DNA from: Drouetiella hepatica Uher 2000/2452
GTDB taxonomy: Bacteria; Cyanobacteriota; Cyanobacteriia; Elainellales; Elainellaceae
Length of the DNA: 64,000 nucleotides
Assembly: GCA_019359505.1 (NCBI GenBank)
Contig: JAHHHD010000002.1
Coordinates: 124,001-188,000, forward strand
Direction of reading: 5' to 3'
Shown here: positions 53,235-63,788 of the stretch, in pieces
Position numbering within the stretch: position 1 is the stretch's first letter
Layout: each line of letters begins with the position of its first letter
Made by a program: the position numbers and the translations under genes
Notes under the pieces: generated by a model
The model's database searches: none
Told to the model about the DNA's origin: nothing
What the model saw: only the letters and a program-made list of their open reading frames with translations

Positions 53235-53993
53235 TTATAAATTTGTAATCATAACTGGCGCACCTTGATGCTGCTGAGGCGATGCAGCATCCTCTACGGT
53301 GACAGCCACGTTAGAAACTAGCCCTTGAGAACGAAAGGCTTTAGGAACGACGATCGTTTGGGAAATATTGCCCTGGGAATCAACCGTGAAAACTTCGGTC
53401 AGAATCGCGCTTTTGCTATCGGTAGTGAAGGGAGCGTCCTGCTTTAGCACTGTCCACAGTACATAAACCTTTCCGGGAGGCAAGGGAGGCAAGTTTTTGA
53501 CCGTCAAAACCGCCTCCAGATTGTTGGGATTTACGACGACGATCGCAGAAGCCCCATTGCCTGCTTTTGTCCCCTGAAGGGAGTAGGTGAGAGCAGCCAA
53601 CCGCTGAGTTTCAGCCTGTGATGCCTGTAGAGTCTGCCACAGCCGATAATTGTTGATGCCTAGAGCCACGATCGCCACTGCGGCTGCGACATTCATTGCC
53701 CTACTCCAAGAGAACTGGCGGCTGGGTCTTTTGACCGCAGCAAGTGGAGTATTTGACACAGACAATTGCTCATGAGCAGCGCTCAGAATAGCTGACCGTA
53801 GATGGGCAGGCGGCTCAACTTCGGGTGCATAGGACAGTTCCAGAGCTTTTTGCATCTGGCTCACCTCTGCTGCGATCGCCGGATGCTCCATCAAATGCCG
53901 CTCAAACTCTGCCGCCTCATCGGGGTCGAGGTCGCCCAGGACATAGCCTGCGATCAATAGCTGTAAGTGTTCTGAGGACATCGACCAAGTCAT
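53235..53993 (-). CDS. Membrane-anchored anti-sigma factor (RskA-like)
   Basis: An N-terminal anti-sigma domain (LLIAGYVLGDLDPDEAAEFE, RHLMEHPAIAAEVSQMQKAL) precedes one membrane span (AMNVAAAVAIVALGINNYRL). A periplasmic RskA-C domain follows (VLTVKNLPPLPPGKVYVLWT, FTVDSQGNISQTIVVP). It would sequester the ECF sigma factor encoded 21 nt upstream until a signal releases it. No zinc-binding HxxxCxxC motif is visible, so it is a ZAS-less type. Start at 53993 or 53981 (MSSEHL). Confidence 0.9.
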   Translation of the reverse strand: MTWSMSSEHLQLLIAGYVLGDLDPDEAAEFERHLMEHPAIAAEVSQMQKALELSYAPEVEPPAHLRSAILSAAHEQLSVSNTPLAAVKRPSRQFSWSRAMNVAAAVAIVALGINNYRLWQTLQASQAETQRLAALTYSLQGTKAGNGASAIVVVNPNNLEAVLTVKNLPPLPPGKVYVLWTVLKQDAPFTTDSKSAILTEVFTVDSQGNISQTIVVPKAFRSQGLVSNVAVTVEDAASPQQHQGAPVMITNL

Positions 53994-54014
53994 AGTTTTG
54001 AGTATCTTTTGCGA

Positions 54015-54602
54015 TTATCTAATGTAGTCCGTAAGGAATTGACGTAATTTGAGGAGACTCCGTCGAGTCGTTGTTTTAATCGTTCCTAGCGGAATACCTA
54101 ATTGCCTAGCAATTTCTGATTGACTCAGACCCTCATAGTAAGCCAGACGCAAAACTTGCTGCTCACTCTCCGATAGCTGTGCAAGTGCAGTTTGTACTGC
54201 CTGGGATTGCTCATTTTGAAACAGATACTCAATAGGAGACTGAGAAGTTTTTTCTGAATGACTAATCGGTCTCCATCGCTCTAAAAAAGAAAGAACCGTG
54301 CTGCGCGATCGCACTCGATCAATTGCCCGCGATCGCGTTAGGATTGCCACAAATGTTCTGAAAGACCCTCGACGCGAATCGTATGCTGTCGCTTTAATCA
54401 GATTCAGAAAAATATCCTGGGTCAGGTCCTCTGCTTCTTGAGCATTCCCCAGAGTTTTGAGGGCTAATCCATAGACTAATCCGGCATGGCGATCGTAAAG
54501 GATACCCAGAGCGTTTGTGTGCCCTGCTTTTAGCCCTAGATATAGCTCTGCATCCGTCTGATCAGAAAGCTGTTTTTCCGTGTTACCCGTTTGCTCAGCC
54601 AT
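54015..54602 (-). CDS. ECF-family sigma factor
   Basis: Region 2 (LYDRHAGLVYGLALKTLGNA, QEAEDLTQDIFLNLIK, ILTRSRAIDRVRSR) and region 4 (LSESEQQVLRLAYYEGLSQS, EIARQLGIPLGTIKTTTRRS) are present without region 1 or a full region 3. This is a group 4-like sigma factor of 195 residues. It is paired with the anti-sigma gene just downstream, an operon typical of stress-responsive ECF systems. I do not assign a cyanobacterial Sig letter. The upstream 240 nt contains the probable autoregulated promoter, but no clear GAAC motif was found. Confidence 0.94.
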   Translation of the reverse strand: MAEQTGNTEKQLSDQTDAELYLGLKAGHTNALGILYDRHAGLVYGLALKTLGNAQEAEDLTQDIFLNLIKATAYDSRRGSFRTFVAILTRSRAIDRVRSRSTVLSFLERWRPISHSEKTSQSPIEYLFQNEQSQAVQTALAQLSESEQQVLRLAYYEGLSQSEIARQLGIPLGTIKTTTRRSLLKLRQFLTDYIR

Positions 54603-55564: not shown

Positions 55565-55607
55565 TTTCAGTACCAATGTACTAAGGTATAGTACATTGGT
55601 ACTGAAA
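55565..55607. promoter_or_regulatory. Paired LexA/SOS-box-like palindromes in a divergent promoter
   Basis: A perfect 19-bp inverted repeat (55565-55583 and 55589-55607) contains AGTACCAATGTACT (55569-55582) and AGTACATTGGTACT (55590-55603). Both fit the cyanobacterial LexA consensus RGTACNNNDGTWCB that I recall for Anabaena. Centres are 21 bp apart, two helical turns. It lies 46 nt upstream of the small ORF and about 97 nt upstream of the five-gene operon on the other strand. Binding is unproven; another dimeric repressor is possible. Confidence 0.6.
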
Positions 55608-55650
55608 GCAGTTTTGCTGTGCTTCAAATAGGTCAGGTAGCTCCCCCATT

Positions 55651-55689
55651 TGAAGCAAACATCTGAAGCAAATATCTGAAGCAAACACG
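55651..55689. repeat. Three 13-nt direct repeats (TGAAGCAAAYATC)
   Basis: TGAAGCAAACATC, TGAAGCAAATATC and TGAAGCAAACACG lie head to tail at 55651, 55664 and 55677, just upstream of the ribosome binding site of the operon's first gene. They could be an untranslated-leader repeat or binding sites. Confidence 0.85.
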
Positions 55690-55703: not shown

Positions 55704-56969
55704 ATGAGCGAGTCGCAGACAGAAATGAGAGCGATTAAACAAAATCTACGGTTGTATCAGCCCCATTCTCACCAGGGCAGTTCTTATCAGAGCCATTCCC
55801 ATTCTCAGCCGCAAAATTTGGCGACTCGCTCTATCCATCCTTTTTCAGAATGGCTATCAGAACAAGCCTCTGCTGATCTGCCTCAGCCCGATCGCGCTTC
55901 AGCCAAAGCTGCGCTGATTTCCCCTCCGAGGCAGTCTCACATAGAGCAGCCGCCCCAGGTTAAGCCGCCCCAGATTAAGCCGCCCCAGGCTAGGCAGCCA
56001 GTGGATCTGCCGCAAATTAATCTACCGCTTGTTCCTGCCACAAGTCCATCTGTATCAAGTTTGCTTAGCCCATCGCCACCGTCGCAGCGCTCAACAGCCG
56101 ATCGCCCTGAAGCAGATGTAGATTGGGAGCCTGTGCGCCCGGTTGCTCAGACTCATGTGACCGCCGATCGCTTGCAGCAGAAGTCTGTTCAGTATTTGCA
56201 GCAGTTTGTCCAGCCCACTCCAGATCGGTCTAACGTCCAGATTGACGCGGATCTGAAGCGCCTGGAAGCACAAGCTCAGCATATCAATCAGCTTGCGATC
56301 ACTCAAGAAGCCGCGATTTTAGAACTTAAGGCGATCGCTCAACAGATTGAAAGAGACTGGAAAACGCTAGAGGTCGTGAATGCGGCACGAGCAGGTTATG
56401 ATGCCTCAAATATTGAGATTCCAGCTGTTTGTGAGTATTCACAGATTAGTGTCCCCTTGGTTGAGAAAAACCGGGTAGGTGTCTTGATGCTCACCGATCG
56501 ATCGATTGACTTGTTTAAAGCTGAGCGTGAGGCGGCAATCACGGCTCAATCGCTGCGTTTTCGCACAGCCCCCCCATTCAAGCCTCGATCGAGCTGGACG
56601 CGAAAGCTGCGGGACTTGCTCTTGGGGAAAAGCAAGTCAGCTCCTAGTTCAGAAACCCGCCCAGCGCCCCAAGGCATAGCTTCCCCTGAAGACAGTCGAT
56701 CGACTCAGGCAAGGGGACAAAAGCGCAAAATTCGCAGCCTCAGCTTTCAAGAGGGGATGTCGCTCCTGTTTGGCGCAGTGCTGGTGCGAGTAATACTCAA
56801 TCTTTTGCTGTCGGCTCATCCTGCCTTTCGGTTCTCTGCAATTGCCCTAATGGTGGTTCCTGGAGCGATCGCCGTCTATCGGTCAAGGGTTACACCCAAA
56901 CTGACGCTTACCTGGGGCAGTCGGTTGATCGTCATCATGATTGGATTTTTGATTGGAGGTCTACTATGA
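55704..56969 (+). CDS. Pro/Gln-rich, coiled-coil membrane protein (operon gene 1)
   Basis: The 421-residue protein has a low-complexity N-terminal 150 residues (HSHQGSSYQSHSHSQPQ, PPQVKPPQIKPPQARQP). A coiled coil follows around residues 160-240 (KRLEAQAQHINQLAITQEAA, ILELKAIAQQIERDWKTLE), then a basic stretch. Two or three membrane spans form the C-terminus (LLFGAVLVRVILNLLLSA, FSAIALMVVPGAIAVYR, LIVIMIGFLIGGLL). A ribosome binding site AGGAG lies at 55695. The family is not recognised. Its stop overlaps the start of the next ORF as ATGA, so translation is coupled. Confidence 0.8.
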   Translation: MSESQTEMRAIKQNLRLYQPHSHQGSSYQSHSHSQPQNLATRSIHPFSEWLSEQASADLPQPDRASAKAALISPPRQSHIEQPPQVKPPQIKPPQARQPVDLPQINLPLVPATSPSVSSLLSPSPPSQRSTADRPEADVDWEPVRPVAQTHVTADRLQQKSVQYLQQFVQPTPDRSNVQIDADLKRLEAQAQHINQLAITQEAAILELKAIAQQIERDWKTLEVVNAARAGYDASNIEIPAVCEYSQISVPLVEKNRVGVLMLTDRSIDLFKAEREAAITAQSLRFRTAPPFKPRSSWTRKLRDLLLGKSKSAPSSETRPAPQGIASPEDSRSTQARGQKRKIRSLSFQEGMSLLFGAVLVRVILNLLLSAHPAFRFSAIALMVVPGAIAVYRSRVTPKLTLTWGSRLIVIMIGFLIGGLL

Positions 56970-57061
56970 GTTCGTTGATTTTAGGAGTTGCGTGGCTATT
57001 CATTGTCACCGCCTGTTTTGCATTCATAGAACCGAAGGACAATAGCCATGAGCGATCTTGA
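56966..57061 (+). CDS. 31-residue single-span peptide (operon gene 2)
   Basis: The ATG at 56966 overlaps the stop of gene 1 (ATGA). It encodes MSSLILGVAWLFIVTACFAF, then IEPKDNSHERS: one hydrophobic helix of about 20 residues and a charged tail. The 3' end overlaps the next gene by 14 nt in another frame. GGAGG at 56955 serves as ribosome binding site. Such a peptide could be a membrane-complex subunit. Its conservation cannot be judged from here. Confidence 0.6.
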   Translation: MSSLILGVAWLFIVTACFAFIEPKDNSHERS

Positions 57062-57467
57062 GGGCGATCCGCCAATACTAAAGCTTCTACTGCTAGTGGG
57101 TCTGGTTTTGGTAGGGTTTGCACTAATGGTGGATGTGCGGAGAGTGAGCTGGAATAGCTTTGCAGACAATTCTCTGAAATCTTCTCGCCCAGTTGAAACC
57201 TGTCAGGGCGAAATCCATGAAGATGTGGTGCTCTCAAGGGAGAATCTGGCAGCTTTTCTGACCGTATCAGAGCGCGAGCCAAAATTTCGCGTCCAGGAAA
57301 TTTTGCCACAATCCTATTGCCAGCTGCCAACCATTGAGGTGCGAGCCGGGGTAGTGTCTGAACGGGAGATCTATCCACTAGCCTTTGATCCCCAGACCTG
57401 GTTAATCATCCTTTATGAGGGTGAAGAGTACGCCGGATATCAGTTTCGGTTTCAAGCTCCAGAGTAA
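57048..57467 (+). CDS. Single-span envelope protein (operon gene 3)
   Basis: Residues 11-30 (LKLLLLVGLVLVGFALMVDV) form a membrane anchor after a short acidic cytosolic end. The rest (ETCQGEIHEDVVLSRENLAA, FLTVSEREPKFRVQEILPQS) is a soluble, probably periplasmic domain of about 100 residues with two cysteines. The family is not recognised. The overlap with gene 2 and the 100-nt gap to gene 4, which holds a degenerate palindrome, place it in the middle of the unit. Confidence 0.75.
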   Translation: MSDLEGDPPILKLLLLVGLVLVGFALMVDVRRVSWNSFADNSLKSSRPVETCQGEIHEDVVLSRENLAAFLTVSEREPKFRVQEILPQSYCQLPTIEVRAGVVSEREIYPLAFDPQTWLIILYEGEEYAGYQFRFQAPE

Positions 57468-57490
57468 AGCGGTCGTGTTTCAAGTACATT

Positions 57491-57536
57491 GCTTATTTTT
57501 GAAAAGTATGGAGTGCGCCCCTTTCAAAAAATAAAC
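57491..57536. repeat. Degenerate palindrome between operon genes 3 and 4
   Basis: CTTATTTTTGAAAAG and CCTTTCAAAAAATAAAC are imperfectly complementary and match the subtype at 2525-2579. It lies inside the operon, so the run of genes may be split at this point. Confidence 0.55.
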
Positions 57537-57567
57537 GATAGGTCTAGAACACTACCTTTAAAGCACT

Positions 57568-58029
57568 ATGGTTCGGATGATTGGGATTGAGAAATGGATT
57601 GGAGGGATAGCGATCGCGCTATGCACCACGGCTTGTAGTCTTGATCCCAACTCTGAACCGATTCGACAAATCCAGATTCAGCAAAACTGGGCTATTCAAC
57701 CGGGCGATCGCATTGCTGGGCACTCTGTTGTTGCCGGATTAGGCGACATCTCTATTCAACTGGGAGGTGATAGGGCATATGCCCCTTTTGCCGGAAAGGT
57801 GCAGCCCAGCAGCAACAAGTGTGCGCTCTTTTCTAGCCCCGATGTGCCCGCTTATCTGTTTCGGCTCTGCGGGTTAGACAAGCTTAATCTAGGCGAAGTT
57901 CAGGCTGGAGAGGCGATCGGCTCAGGCGATTACCTGTACTTTGCCACGCTACGCAAGCAGCCCGACGGCACTTGGACGATCGTTGAACCTGCCAAGGATA
58001 TTCTGGAACGCATTCTTAAGCCCTCTTAA
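57568..58029 (+). CDS. Small putative lipoprotein (operon gene 4)
   Basis: A signal peptide (IEKWIGGIAIALCTTACSLD) ends in a lipobox-like CTTAC, so the mature protein may be lipid-anchored at Cys23. The remainder (WAIQPGDRIAGHSVVAGLGD, IQLGGDRAYAPFAGKVQPSS, GEVQAGEAIGSGDYLYFATL) has glycine-aspartate turns like a small beta domain, vaguely like a M23/lipoyl-type sandwich but without zinc-binding residues. The function is unknown. Confidence 0.75.
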   Translation: MVRMIGIEKWIGGIAIALCTTACSLDPNSEPIRQIQIQQNWAIQPGDRIAGHSVVAGLGDISIQLGGDRAYAPFAGKVQPSSNKCALFSSPDVPAYLFRLCGLDKLNLGEVQAGEAIGSGDYLYFATLRKQPDGTWTIVEPAKDILERILKPS

Positions 58030-58041
58030 AACGCAACGACC

Positions 58042-59514
58042 ATGCAACACATTGACTGGATAAGCTGGATCTTAAAAATTGTGCAGGTTTGGCACAGCCG
58101 ATCTCCAAAAGAGTTTTCAGAAGAGCTATCCACTCGTTCTTATATGTTGCGTCGGCACTTGCTGCCAGTGACGCTAGTGGTGCTTGCTTTGGGCTGTTGC
58201 TCCGTTGCTCAGGCAGAGGCAGGCGGGACAGATGAGATTCTAGTCACGGCTTCTAATCCAGTTAGTCTTGAGGTTGGCAAAGGCGATCGCCTAGAGATTC
58301 CTTCGAGTGCCGCCGAGATTCCTGTAGGGGCTGCCGATCGCTCTTGGGAAAATTTGCCGCCGCCTGATCAGGCTGCTCTAACTCAGGCTGCTCCAACTCA
58401 GGCTGCTGCTCAGCCCATTGTCTCGGAGACTAAACAGGCTAGTCTGCAAGCGGCTCCTGTTGCTGCGAACTTGCTTCAGACCATCAAAGCTGAGACAGCC
58501 GCAAAGCCCGTTGAGTTAGCCTTTGCTCTATCGCCTCAACCCTCTTTTCAACCTCAGACGGCTAGTTCTCAAGCGATTCTGGAACCTGTTTCTCCGGCGA
58601 TTCCTGAAGCAGATCCGGGCGTAGGTACTTCCTCCCTAGCCAATCTATTTGTCGGTCATTCTGATTCACTGGTTGCTAAGGCGGTGGGTAGTGCAGAGGG
58701 CACACGCACTCCGGAGGGCGATCGCACTCCGGCTTACTTTGGCCATGTCGATCCTGGCAACAAGGCATGGAATCTGGGCAGCTTTTCCTATCAACATGAA
58801 GCCACTACGCCAGAAGATGCCGATGCCAAGCAGCTGAATCGGCTGCAAGATCAGGCAAGCATCATGCAAGCCAAAGCTCAAGCTAAGGGCATCTCTCTGA
58901 CGCTAGAGGAAGCCCTGAACGGCATTGATCTCGCCAATCAAGCTCCCAAGGCGGTTTTAGACCGAGAGGGCTACATTGACTGGTTGGCAAAAGCCCACCA
59001 AAACGGTTTATCGGGTGATGATGCGGTGCTGTGGGCACGAACCCAGTCGTTTTTTGACCCTAATCTTCAGCGGTGGAATGCGCCTGGATTGGGTAACACT
59101 CAGGAGCGCATCACTCACGATCAAGAACGGCGAATGAAGGCGATCGATCGGGCTATTGCCGTTCATGAGCAGCCTCTCATCCAGCCCGCTCAATCCTTGC
59201 CTCAGCCTGAACCGTTTCAGCCTGCATTGCCTCAACCTGCACTGCCCCAACCCACTGCTCAACCTGTTGCCCAGGAAAGTCACAAGCTTTCTGAAGATAT
59301 CGGCATAGCTCGTTTGTTTGCCGAGAAAACCATCTCTTACTTTGGGGGAACTGTGCCTTCTTCTGTGTCCAAGCTGAGTCAGCCGGAGCAGATCCACTCT
59401 AGTTCAGTAACTGAGTCAGACTCTGGATTGGCGACCTTAGCACCCCAGAGCGCAGACTCGTCCGAATCTCCGGGCATCGCCGCGCTGTTTGATCTAGACT
59501 TACCCAGCTCGTGA
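58042..59514 (+). CDS. Exported protein with conserved central domain (operon gene 5)
   Basis: The frame starts at ATG 58042, but a clean signal peptide (MLRRHLLPVTLVVLALGCCS then VAQAEA) begins at ATG 58144, so the real N-terminus may be there. A long Ala/Pro/Gln-rich region leads to a folded domain around residues 205-380. It contains VGSAEGTRTPEGDRTPAYFG, HVDPGNKAWNLGSFSYQHEA and AWARTQSFFDPNLQRWNAPG-like segments. The AEGT pattern recalls phage-lysozyme-like muramidases, but I cannot support that. A low-complexity tail closes the protein. It is probably periplasmic. Confidence 0.75.
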   Translation: MQHIDWISWILKIVQVWHSRSPKEFSEELSTRSYMLRRHLLPVTLVVLALGCCSVAQAEAGGTDEILVTASNPVSLEVGKGDRLEIPSSAAEIPVGAADRSWENLPPPDQAALTQAAPTQAAAQPIVSETKQASLQAAPVAANLLQTIKAETAAKPVELAFALSPQPSFQPQTASSQAILEPVSPAIPEADPGVGTSSLANLFVGHSDSLVAKAVGSAEGTRTPEGDRTPAYFGHVDPGNKAWNLGSFSYQHEATTPEDADAKQLNRLQDQASIMQAKAQAKGISLTLEEALNGIDLANQAPKAVLDREGYIDWLAKAHQNGLSGDDAVLWARTQSFFDPNLQRWNAPGLGNTQERITHDQERRMKAIDRAIAVHEQPLIQPAQSLPQPEPFQPALPQPALPQPTAQPVAQESHKLSEDIGIARLFAEKTISYFGGTVPSSVSKLSQPEQIHSSSVTESDSGLATLAPQSADSSESPGIAALFDLDLPSS

Positions 59515-59540: not shown

Positions 59541-60710
59541 CTAAACCTCAACTTCAGACAAAATTTCTCCATTCAAAATTTCTCCATACAGCGTATCTCG
59601 CTGCTGTGCGGGTCTACCCAGAGATTCGATCGCCGATCGCAAAGTCTCTACTTCCATACAGGTGCCACCGATCGCTCCTGCCATCGTGGTAATGTGCTCT
59701 TCCATCAGGGTGCCGCCGATATCGTTACAGCCCCAAGTGAGGGATTCTGTTGCCCCCTCCAGACCTAGCTTCACCCAGCTCGGCTGATGGTTGGGAATAG
59801 AATTGCCTAAAAAGATGCGGGCTACCGCCATCAATAGCAGCGCATCTGCAAGGATCGGCTGATCGCGTCCGACTCGACGGCGCAGAGGTTTGGGAGCCTC
59901 TTGCCCGACAAAAGGCAGGAGAATAAATTCGCTGATGCCAGAATAGCCCTGGCTGAGGGAATCCTGCTGAAGCGATCGCAGTAGTCCCAGGTGCCGCATT
60001 TGCTGAGCGGGCGTTTCAATGTGTCCTGACATCATGGTGCTAGTCGTAGGCATTCCTAAGCGATGCGCTGTCTGAACGATGTCTAGCCAAGTTTGCGAAT
60101 CGATCTTTTCAGGACAGATGACTCGTCGTACCGCATCGTCTAACACCTCGGCGGCTGTTCCTGGCATTGAGCCAACGCCCGCCTCTTGGAGAGCCGCAAT
60201 CACCTCTGCATAGCTCAGGTCGTCCTCTCTGGCGATAAACTGCACCTCTTGCGGCGAAAAGGCGTGCAGATGCAGATGAGGATAAGCCTGTTTAATCGAT
60301 TGCACCAGCCGCACATAGTAAGGCAAGGCACGATCGTCTACTTTTGCCTTAACGTGCAGCCCTCCCTGCATACAAATTTCTGTGGCATTCCGCTGCACCG
60401 CATCTGCCGCTTTCTCTAAGATCGCCCCTTCATCTAGCCAGTAGGCTCCCGCCTCGTCTTCATCACGCCGGAAGGCGCAGAAGCTGCAATGCTGCTCACA
60501 GATGTTGGTGAAGTTAATGTTGCGATTGATCACATAGGTGACCGTCTCGCCAGACTGCTGTTGACGCAGGCGATCGGCAGTTTCACGGATGGCGGCGATC
60601 GCTCCAGCATCGGTTTGGAGCAACAGCGCCACGCCTTCTGCTTCAGTCAGATCTTCGCCAGCCAAAGCGCGATTGAGGAGAGCATCAACAGGGGAAGGGA
60701 TAGTCAGCAT
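59541..60710 (-). CDS. cofH: FO synthase subunit 2 CofH
   Basis: CofH is a radical SAM enzyme that, with CofG, joins a tyrosine-derived radical to the ribitylaminouracil for deazaflavin (FO) synthesis, cofactor of cyanobacterial photolyases. The cluster motif is C71-x3-C75-x2-C78 ([12 protein letters not shown]). [57 protein letters not shown] and [19 protein letters not shown] are family blocks. Length (389) is normal. cofG is not in the window; cyanobacteria keep the two separate. The stop lies 27 nt from the end of operon gene 5, convergent. Confidence 0.94.
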
Positions 60711-61083: not shown

Positions 61084-61644
61084 ATGGCATCGGCAATGAG
61101 ATCTAATCCGGGATCAGCCGATCGCCGTCCACCCGCGCCGCGATCGATCTTTTCAGGGAGCACTCAGAGATCAAGCTCCAGAAGGTCGGGGGCAGGGCGA
61201 TCGGTAGCAAGACCTCGTCCAGAGAATGTTTCTGCTGTTAAATCGGCTAGAAATTCTGTGGTTCAGCAGCTCCCTCGACCTCAGACAGCGCCACCTTGGG
61301 TAAAGATGTTGCTGAATGTTCAGAGAACTTCCTCTCTTGTGACGTTCTCTTTAATTATCGGGCTATTGGCAGTTTATGGTTGGACTGTTTACACTCAGCA
61401 GCGATGGGGACGCGCCTACACCCACCTAGAGTCTCTACAGAAGCAAGAGCGGCAGATGACGGCAGCCAGTGAGGTTCTCAAAAACCAAATGGCGAAACAG
61501 GCGGAGGCTCCTGATGTGGGCTTGGCGCTTCCTGATCCAGGCAATACCGTATTTCTGACTCCTGCGCCGCAGCGTGCTGCGGTGGAGCCAGAAGTAAACT
61601 TACCGCCACCACAGCCTATTCCAGCCCGTCCTTTGGGTTACTAG
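61084..61644 (+). CDS. FtsL-like divisome protein
   Basis: A basic, Ser/Arg/Pro-rich cytosolic N-terminus of about 80 residues precedes one membrane span (LVTFSLIIGLLAVYGWTVY). A short coiled coil follows (AYTHLESLQKQERQMTAASE, VLKNQMAKQA), then a Pro-rich tail. This bitopic layout with periplasmic coiled coil, just upstream of an FtsI-type transpeptidase gene, is that of cyanobacterial FtsL. Sequence similarity in this family is low, so the assignment rests on topology and position. It is 81 nt upstream of ftsI. Confidence 0.75.
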   Translation: MASAMRSNPGSADRRPPAPRSIFSGSTQRSSSRRSGAGRSVARPRPENVSAVKSARNSVVQQLPRPQTAPPWVKMLLNVQRTSSLVTFSLIIGLLAVYGWTVYTQQRWGRAYTHLESLQKQERQMTAASEVLKNQMAKQAEAPDVGLALPDPGNTVFLTPAPQRAAVEPEVNLPPPQPIPARPLGY

Positions 61645-61724
61645 CCTCCAGGTTATTAGCCGCTGGGTTAGCGCCTAAGCACAGAGTTTACTCATGAGTT
61701 TGAGGATATTTTCGAGGTTTTCTG

Positions 61725-63788
61725 ATGGCTCTTTCATTCCCCTCGTTTCGTCGCCGCGCCGCAGTCAAACGCACTCTATCCAGGTCTGCAACAGCTGCTG
61801 GCATGAGAGCGGGGCGACCCAGCAGACAGACGGAAGCTAGGGTTAACAGAACGCCAGGGAGATCGTTAGATTCTGGTCGATCGCACCAGCCAATGGGGTT
61901 TTCGAGTCGCTCGGTGCCTCAGAAACGACGCTTGCCTCCCCTAGCTCAAGGCACGATCGATCGGGCACCCAAATCACGTCTGGCTCTAGTTTGGGTCATT
62001 TTACTGGTAAGCATGGTGGCACTTGCTTTCAACCTACTTCGGATTCAAATTTTTCAGGCTTCTCAGCTGCAAGCCCAGGCAAAATCGCAGCACATGGTGG
62101 CGTTCAACCCGATCACGCCACGCCGTCCTATTGTCGATCGCACAGGCGATGTGCTGGCGATCGATCGTCCGGTCTATACGCTGTATGCCCATCCCTATAT
62201 GTTTGAGGGCACTCCAGAATCGATCGCAGCTACGCTGTCTCCAGTGTTAAATTTGCCGATCGATCAGTTGCTCAAAAAATTTGGCTCTGGGGACAGCGGC
62301 GTTCGCATTTTGGAAGCTATTCCTGAAGATTTGGCTCGCCGCGTTAAAGAGTTAGGTGAGGATGGGCTGGATCTAGAACCTCATCAGCAGCGGCTTTATC
62401 CCCAGCAGGATTTGTTTGCCAACATCGTCGGCTACGTCAACCTTGATCGGCAGGGACAGGCAGGGCTAGAAGCCTCGCAGGAGAAGGAATTACAACAGCC
62501 GATCGCGGGTTTAGAACTGAGCCGAGCTGGGGATGGCTCGATCATTCCGGTCGGTCTGCCTGAAGATTTCCTTCAGTCTCAGAAAAATGATTTGCGGCTA
62601 CAGCTGACGGTAGACACCCATCTTCAGCGTGCTACCCGCTATGCGTTGAAGCAGACGATGAAGAAATACAGCGCCAAACGGGGTGCGGTGATTGTCATGA
62701 ATGTGCATGACGGCTCGATCGTTTCGCTAGTTTCGGAGCCATCCTATGATCCCAACAAGTTCTATGAAGCTAAGCTAGAGCGACTCAAGGATTGGGTGAT
62801 TAGCGACCTGTATGAACCTGGCTCCACCTTTAAGCCCGTAAATCTGGCGATCGCCCTAGAGTCTAGCGCCATCAAAGCCGATAGCACCATCTATGACGAA
62901 GGGGCAATTCAGATTGAAGGTTGGCCGATTCAAAACTCTGATGTAGAGTCTGCGGGCAGCAGAGGCGACCTTTCGGTGACCGAAGTGTTGCAATATTCCA
63001 GCAACGTTGGCATGGTGCATATCATGCAGCGCATGAATCCAGGAGTCTACTTTGGCTGGCTAGAGCGAATTGGGCTGGATAAAACAACCGGAATTGACTT
63101 GCCTGCTGAAGCCTCAGGACAGATGAAAACCTATCAGCAGTTCACCGAAGCGGCGATCGAGCCTGCAACTAGCGCCTTTGGTCAAGGGTTCTCGCTGACA
63201 CCAATGAAGCTCATTCAGCTGCATAGCATGGTTGCGAACGGCGGTCGGCTGGTCACGCCCCACGTAGTTGAGGGCTTAGTGGATGCTAAGGGCACCTTTA
63301 GCTGGCGACCTGATTTGCCTGAACCCAAGACCATTATTTCTCCAAAACACTCCAAGACCGTCGTGAGCATGATGGAGCATGTGGTGAACGAAGGCACAGG
63401 CAAAGCAGCGCAGATCCCAGGCTATCGGATTGCAGGAAAAACTGGCACCGCCCAAAAAGCTAGCATTGACGGCGGCTACGTTGAAGGAGCCAGAATCACA
63501 AGCTTTGTCGGATTGCTGCCTGCTGAAGCTCCGCGCTATGCGGTGTTGGCTGTTGTGGATGAGCCGCAGGGGGATGATGCCTATGGCGGCACAGTGGCGG
63601 CACCGATCGTCAAGTCAGTCATGCAATCTCTGATCACCATGGAGCAGCTCAAACCCACGAAACCCGAAGAGGTTCTTCAGCAGCCAGTCCCAGCTCCTTC
63701 CGTCAATTCTTCAGAGGATGCTGAAGAGGGTTCACTGGAGGAAAGTCAGCCCAGCGAGGACGCATTGGATTACGAAGAAGCCTGGTAA
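61725..63788 (+). CDS. ftsI: Class B penicillin-binding protein FtsI/PBP2-type
   Basis: This septal peptidoglycan transpeptidase has a basic N-terminus of about 80 residues, one membrane span (LVWVILLVSMVALAFNLLRI), the pedestal domain (RPIVDRTGDVLAIDRPVYTL) and the catalytic domain. Active-site motifs are S-x-x-K in EPGSTFKPV, S-x-N in YSSNVGM and KTG in AGKTGTAQ, all intact. The C-terminus is acidic and low-complexity. Length (687) is larger than E. coli FtsI, as in other cyanobacteria. GAGG lies at the right distance before ATG 61725. Confidence 0.92.
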   Translation: MALSFPSFRRRAAVKRTLSRSATAAGMRAGRPSRQTEARVNRTPGRSLDSGRSHQPMGFSSRSVPQKRRLPPLAQGTIDRAPKSRLALVWVILLVSMVALAFNLLRIQIFQASQLQAQAKSQHMVAFNPITPRRPIVDRTGDVLAIDRPVYTLYAHPYMFEGTPESIAATLSPVLNLPIDQLLKKFGSGDSGVRILEAIPEDLARRVKELGEDGLDLEPHQQRLYPQQDLFANIVGYVNLDRQGQAGLEASQEKELQQPIAGLELSRAGDGSIIPVGLPEDFLQSQKNDLRLQLTVDTHLQRATRYALKQTMKKYSAKRGAVIVMNVHDGSIVSLVSEPSYDPNKFYEAKLERLKDWVISDLYEPGSTFKPVNLAIALESSAIKADSTIYDEGAIQIEGWPIQNSDVESAGSRGDLSVTEVLQYSSNVGMVHIMQRMNPGVYFGWLERIGLDKTTGIDLPAEASGQMKTYQQFTEAAIEPATSAFGQGFSLTPMKLIQLHSMVANGGRLVTPHVVEGLVDAKGTFSWRPDLPEPKTIISPKHSKTVVSMMEHVVNEGTGKAAQIPGYRIAGKTGTAQKASIDGGYVEGARITSFVGLLPAEAPRYAVLAVVDEPQGDDAYGGTVAAPIVKSVMQSLITMEQLKPTKPEEVLQQPVPAPSVNSSEDAEEGSLEESQPSEDALDYEEAW

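Follow-up and report, generated by a model that had tools for sequence, protein, structure and literature searches.

Gene organization of the locus

The five genes described here are at positions 55704–59514 of a 64,000 nucleotide (nt) stretch of the Drouetiella hepatica Uher 2000/2452 genome (the window). They form an operon in which the last gene encodes an exported protein with a predicted lysozyme-superfamily core and the gene before it a lipoprotein with a degenerate LytM domain, and a perfect inverted repeat with two LexA-like boxes is found upstream. The gene set sits on contig C22 of the 6.4-Mb genome, whose nearest relatives with a name are genomes of Leptolyngbya-type cyanobacteria and Oscillatoriophycideae. 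The features are as follows.

55565..55607, no strand: perfect inverted repeat with 19-bp arms and a 5-nt loop; two AGTACCAATGTACT boxes, at 55569-55582 and, inverted, at 55590-55603
55704..56969, + strand: gene 1, 421 amino acids (aa); N-terminal half disordered, coiled coil at ~163-279, hydrophobic C-terminal spans at ~351-420
56966..57061, + strand: gene 2, single-span membrane microprotein of 31 aa; overlaps genes 1 and 3
57048..57467, + strand: gene 3, 139 aa; one N-terminal span, a probably periplasmic domain, invariant C52 and C91
57568..58029, + strand: gene 4, lipoprotein of 153 aa; lipobox Cys23, catalytically degenerate LytM/M23 domain at ~48-150
58042..59514, + strand: gene 5, exported protein of 490 aa; signal peptide at ~35-57, proline-rich linkers flanking the core on both sides
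58648..59157, + strand: predicted lysozyme-superfamily (muramidase-like) core of gene 5, residues ~203-372, invariant E219 and D237

All five open reading frames (ORFs) are where the original prediction, made from the sequence of the window, had placed them, and its two overlaps were confirmed (ATGA at 56966-56969 and 14 nt at 57048-57061). Gene 5 may start at an internal ATG, 58144, instead of 58042. Single-sequence scans of the window proteins against Pfam, PHROGs and NCBIfam gave nothing usable. The earlier statement that the families are not recognizable is correct for these scans, and it is superseded by the predicted lysozyme-superfamily core of gene 5 and the predicted degenerate LytM fold of gene 4.

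Conservation of the operon

The operon is real, and its conservation extends widely across Leptolyngbya-type cyanobacteria. Dozens of genomes have homologs of genes 1, 3, 4 and 5 in constant order and on the same strand, and the flanking genes vary from locus to locus; this recurrent order within non-conserved flanks is far from a chance arrangement. Relatives of gene 5 are present in 32 of the 40 genomes searched (its own genome and relatives), often in multiple copies. Among 80 further named cyanobacterial loci, 48 have genes 1, 3 and 4 together with gene 5, and 13 more have genes 3 and 4. A fixed sample of 292 cyanobacterial genomes, in which related genomes are not independent, has the gene 5 core in 21 genomes and genes 3 and 4 in 10 each. 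The gene 3 and gene 4 genome sets are identical, i.e., the same 10 genomes, and are nested inside the gene 5 set. No genome of the 292 has gene 3 without gene 4 or the reverse. Genes 3 and 4 are an obligatory and sometimes fused pair. The original prediction had left conservation of the gene order to be checked, and had held that absence of co-occurrence elsewhere, or membership of the genes in unrelated known pathways, would speak against it. The 1-3-4-5 order recurs across cyanobacterial genomes, and neither contrary finding was made.

Five plasmid records were matched, mostly by the core domain alone, with the best record left out of the inspection. The gene 5 domain is found amid small hypothetical genes in cyanobacterial plasmids L074 (5827-6501), L075 (4911-5705) and L073 (4281-5477), and in L073 it is fused to an M23 domain. 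These runs are perhaps phage-like elements. The operon itself was also considered as part of a mobile or conjugative island, and this reading was dropped because the flanks vary and transfer genes do not recur. No recurrent transfer gene family or phage-type flanking family was seen among ~40 loci, where flank annotation was not exhaustive.

Gene 5

Gene 5 had been described as an exported protein with an AEGT...HVDPGN...LGSFSYQ core, and both points agree with the present analysis: residues 35-57 are a signal-peptide-like segment and the core is nearly invariant in relatives. The protein (P0004) has no match to curated Pfam or NCBIfam models at E <= 1, and a PDB sequence search with the gene 5 profile found no true relative. 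The structure of the core (~203-372) was modeled from an alignment of 66 sequences, with four rows left out beforehand, and has a mean predicted local distance difference test (pLDDT) value of 95.6. A Foldseek comparison with the PDB is led by T4-type endolysins, an Acinetobacter muramidase, a GH24 muramidase and goose lysozyme; the best match is 7m5i, with a probability of 0.99 and an E value of 0.025. By VIA-align, P22 lysozyme is best (Z 8.5, root mean square deviation 4.0 over 136 residues), and next are other lysozymes, lytic transglycosylases and GH46 chitosanases, all of which are lysozyme-like enzymes. Among the named viral matches of the core, most are lysozymes and endolysins.

Residues E219 and D237 are invariant across all 66 aligned relatives. 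E219 would fall on position 11 of T4 lysozyme, an equivalence given by aligned-range offsets and not by residue-level superposition; position 11 is the catalytic Glu of that enzyme. The core is confidently predicted to have a lysozyme-superfamily fold, with a distant match to the known structures. As the match is distant, the core is read as a new family within the lysozyme fold. GH24/T4-type phage lysozymes and goose-type lysozymes share with it the predicted fold and probably an acidic residue that ends the first core helix, with a beta region that follows. Unlike these enzymes, gene 5 has no Pfam match and has its own motif, EGT-(n)-GHxDPGN-(n)-NxGxFSxQH. It differs from known lysozymes also by C-terminal DLANQ and WNAPGLGN motifs.

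The proteins and genes with which the gene 5 domain is associated provide a separate line of evidence. Fusions of the domain to M23 peptidases, with either one first, are seen in viral contigs and plasmids. It is also fused there to a C39 peptidase, and it is present in a tape-measure protein that has an M23 domain. The cyanophage proteins that contain it include tape-measure, virion and lysis proteins, and in a Microcoleus phage it is encoded between an amidase gene and LD-endopeptidase/M23 genes. In some operons, e.g., L207, gene 5 itself carries an M23 domain. This domain company is strong independent evidence for the putative wall-hydrolase nature of the gene 5 core.

A family of phage proteins of ~950-1020 aa that end in the gene 5 domain was also observed (viral contigs such as L165, L168 and L172). 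One member, from the complete genome of an Autographiviridae phage (L072, 2200-5172), is annotated as a LysM protein and is encoded near the terminase gene.

Gene 4

Gene 4 is a lipoprotein, as had been proposed: the lipobox-type Cys23 is kept in 40 of 43 relatives. A PDB sequence search with its profile found no true relative, and the "Cake" designs that this search matched were discarded as summed weak repeat matches. An hhalign comparison with an M23 profile, built mostly from M23 domains of this genome, gave a probability of 91.9 over the V.APF.G.V...LHF region. The predicted structure (pLDDT 88.6) is closest by Foldseek to the LytM domain of PrgK (E 3.1e-4), with DipM, LytU and EnvC close behind; by VIA-align, LytU has a Z of 10.5 and EnvC and DipM have 9.9.

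Equivalence of the zinc-binding and catalytic residues was set by motif alignment. On this basis, all 43 relatives have Ala, Gly or Ser where the first zinc His would be. Only 3 of the 43 have the catalytic His of HxH, while 23 have the last His and 41 the Asp of HxxxD. With a LytM fold that lacks the zinc and catalytic His residues, gene 4 very likely represents a non-catalytic LytM factor. The conserved neighborhood and the domain fusions suggest that it may bind and regulate a cell wall hydrolase.

Two groups of known proteins are similar. In DipM, EnvC and NlpD an inactive LytM fold controls wall hydrolases, and NlpD is also a lipoprotein (PMC10336132). For DipM, these hydrolases include lytic transglycosylases; it binds these as well as an amidase, and it has a stimulating effect on SdpA and AmiC (PMC10336132). 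Gene 4 differs from all three in that it consists of just a lipobox and a LytM domain, has two invariant Cys residues and is accompanied by gene 3 and by a hydrolase gene of its own. The second is PrgK, from the pCF10 conjugation system of E. faecalis, which joins a degenerate LytM domain to a muramidase, and where the degenerate LytM and CHAP domains downregulate the muramidase (PMC11323569). A phage origin has also been suggested for the PrgK muramidase domain (PMC11323569). PrgK is a single Gram-positive multidomain conjugation protein, whereas the operon has separate genes, its muramidase-like protein is of a different family, and a membrane pair and a LexA-type box are present in addition.

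Genes 1, 2 and 3

The C-terminal spans that had been noted in gene 1 are present at ~351-420; the coiled coil that had been noted with them was also found, as a weak match (residues 163-279). Gene 1 homologs are immediately upstream of gene 3 in most loci and are weakly conserved except for the C-terminal spans. Gene 2 belongs to a family with the pattern M-x-x-LLGAxWLLIVLSCF...DEAP that usually begins at the gene 1 stop codon. Related microproteins are at the same position in 29 of 74 loci (~20 without double entries), and the reverse strand of the 74 loci, searched as a control, gave zero matches.

Relatives of gene 3 have two invariant cysteines, and many have positively charged N-termini. 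By inference from these sequence properties the orientation of gene 3 would be N-in, C-out, and the two cysteines are consistent with a periplasmic disulfide. The gene 3 profile has no relative of known structure among PDB sequences. At two loci of genome G047, a fusion of genes 3 and 4 encodes one protein of ~285 residues, with an N-terminal span, directly before gene 5 (L206, 8959-9813, and L207, 9120-9977, the latter being the locus where gene 5 has the added M23 domain). This natural fusion makes a physical complex of the gene 3 and gene 4 proteins likely. An assembly that reaches from the inner membrane to the periplasm had been proposed for the five proteins. The strict co-occurrence of genes 3 and 4, their fusion and the topology predictions lend it support for this pair, as a candidate complex.

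The putative LexA-type control site

The original prediction also pointed to a damage-response-like promoter before gene 1. As a sequence feature this is borne out by the inverted repeat, its two boxes and a conserved match to the LexA consensus. The two exact copies of AGTACCAATGTACT in the repeat are the only ones in the genome. The cyanobacterial LexA consensus is given as AGTACWNWTGTACT or RGTACNNNDGTWCB (PMC3091678); AGTACCAATGTACT fits the former at all positions but one and the latter at all. The term "cell wall" is absent from that paper on the cyanobacterial LexA regulon (PMC3091678).

When a box was called at >=10 of 11 matching positions, it was present before 40 of 62 distinct operons, as against 15 of 364 neighboring genes (Fisher p ~6e-28, uncorrected for phylogeny). 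The boxes upstream of operons are often paired, 20-30 nt apart, and are in the same place in relatives. In genome G065, gene 5 is far from genes 3 and 4, and both loci bear a box; other loci with the gene 5 core and no genes 3 and 4 nearby have none. LexA is encoded in the genome by a LexA/S24-type ORF (PF01726 match, E 1.4e-23), and lexA and recA carry weaker paired boxes. These features suggest that LexA may bind at the repeat and that the operon may be inducible by DNA damage.

A consensus scan upstream of gene 1 found no -35/-10 hexamers. The boxes have the spacing GTAN6TAC, which does not fit an NtcA site (GTAN8TAC), and that reading was rejected. A hairpin terminator or attenuator was set aside because relatives (L051, L053) keep the two boxes and not perfect complementarity of the arms. 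The leader between the boxes and gene 1 (55648-55687) has three tandem copies of a 13-nt unit, ATTTGAAGCAAAC.

Functional interpretation

Because of the gene 5 fold, the dead LytM domain of gene 4, the pairing of genes 3 and 4 and the conserved box, a LexA-controlled module for peptidoglycan remodeling is favored. In this model, which we consider probable and hold with moderate confidence, membrane protein 3 and dead LytM protein 4 would control muramidase 5. LexA would repress the operon, and DNA damage or a related stress would derepress it. Gene 3, in the inner membrane, and gene 4 would form a periplasmic regulator that docks and tunes the gene 5 muramidase, by analogy with DipM and its lytic transglycosylases and with the LytM and muramidase domains of PrgK. 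Gene 1, with its coiled coil and spans, and microprotein 2 may serve the complex as an anchor or gate on the membrane side and connect it to the membrane and cytoplasm. The most likely outcome would not be bulk lysis; peptidoglycan would be opened locally and in a controlled way, and septum formation in damaged filaments would be delayed or redirected. This physiological outcome, LexA binding and the muramidase activity of gene 5 are inferred.

Several points weigh against this interpretation. The Foldseek E value for gene 5 is only 0.025 and the VIA-align Z is middling; assignment of the core as a muramidase draws on the consistency of the hits, the acidic pair and the domain company. The fused lineage (L206, L207) and L224 have no box at the threshold used, and the box pattern is not enriched genome-wide, where it has 13 matches and the reversed control has 19. 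Not every cyanobacterial LexA is an SOS repressor. Conservation of gene 1 is poor, and its proposed role is a guess. The gene 4 lipoproteins have no Asp at +2 and so could be in the outer membrane, away from gene 3.

The main rivals are a checkpoint similar to SidA or ChiZ and an SOS lysis cassette. In the former, microprotein 2 (and protein 3) would block septal synthesis in the manner of SidA, YneA or ChiZ, and the muramidase/LytM part would trim the septum. SidA of Caulobacter is an inner-membrane protein of 29 aa (PMC4211646), comparable to the 31-aa single-span product of gene 2, and in Mycobacterium DNA damage induces ChiZ, a cell wall hydrolase by which division is inhibited (PMC3989709). 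The LexA-consensus control fits as well, and the analogy would be one of size, topology and control, as these inhibitors are membrane proteins that are small or act on the wall and that DNA damage induces. However, gene 2 is recognized in just ~1/3 of loci, and none of the three inhibitors is known to pair a dedicated muramidase with a dead LytM partner; a division inhibitor appears rather unlikely. A domesticated phage cassette would use the muramidase for SOS-triggered programmed lysis, by which filaments would be broken (necridia) or particles or DNA set free. Lysins and tape-measure proteins of cyanophages share the gene 5 domain, prophage-type lysis is typically under LexA control, and the small membrane protein of gene 2 could be holin-like. 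Yet no flanking gene family that points to phage recurs, gene 2 is missing or unrecognized in most loci, and the dead LytM partner, the inner-membrane coiled-coil protein and the strict conservation of genes 3 and 4 suggest regulation and not lysis. Such a cassette is considered unlikely.

A housekeeping module for wall growth or filament morphology, with the box read by a regulator other than damage-responsive LexA, is judged about equally improbable. Nearly every genome of the family has the module, and many have more than one copy; within the genus it adjoins a penicillin-binding transpeptidase gene; cyanobacterial LexA can also act on non-SOS genes such as hox (PMC3091678). Set against this are the close fit of the box to the LexA consensus and the related boxes before lexA and recA. 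The proposal with the least in its favor, and a very improbable one, is a wall-opening enzyme of a conjugation or secretion machine of the VirB1 or PrgK type. It would account for PrgK LytM as the best fold match of gene 4, PrgK being a protein that pairs dead LytM with a muramidase, but the flanks differ by locus with no recurrent transfer gene family seen, and several loci are on multi-megabase chromosomal contigs.

A more novel reading may be suggested tentatively, and is possible at best: a LexA-governed SOS wall checkpoint special to thread-forming cyanobacteria, where DNA damage would free a phage-related muramidase and damaged filament cells would halt septation or be sacrificed. Its control would reside in the inner-membrane/dead-LytM complex and the coupled microprotein. 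SOS effects on division in multicellular bacteria are little known. If this proposal is true, multicellular bacteria would have an SOS cell-wall checkpoint in which both the lysozyme family and its partner family, gene 3, are new, the latter entirely so. Each part belongs to a known kind; no description of the gene 5 family, of gene 3, of microprotein 2 or of their combination with a LexA box was found in the open-access literature. A widespread and unannotated Leptolyngbya-type gene set would gain an assignable role, and gene 5 would add to the lysozyme superfamily a family that also marks cyanophage lysins. The operon would also offer a hydrolase and a dead LytM regulator that are paired in nature. 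Should the LexA link hold, it would connect DNA damage with wall remodeling in multicellular bacteria in a way that can be tested directly.

Neighboring genes

Upstream of the operon, genes for an ECF-type sigma factor and an RskA-type anti-sigma factor are side by side on the opposite strand (53235-54602, -). A convergent gene, which by its sequence is probably radical-SAM CofH-like (59541-60710, -), ends ~27 nt past the operon. Just past the operon, at 61084-63788 (+), a 186-aa membrane/coiled-coil protein is followed by a penicillin-binding transpeptidase in an FtsL-FtsI-like arrangement. This pair is kept beside the operon in two relatives of the same genus (L051, L052).

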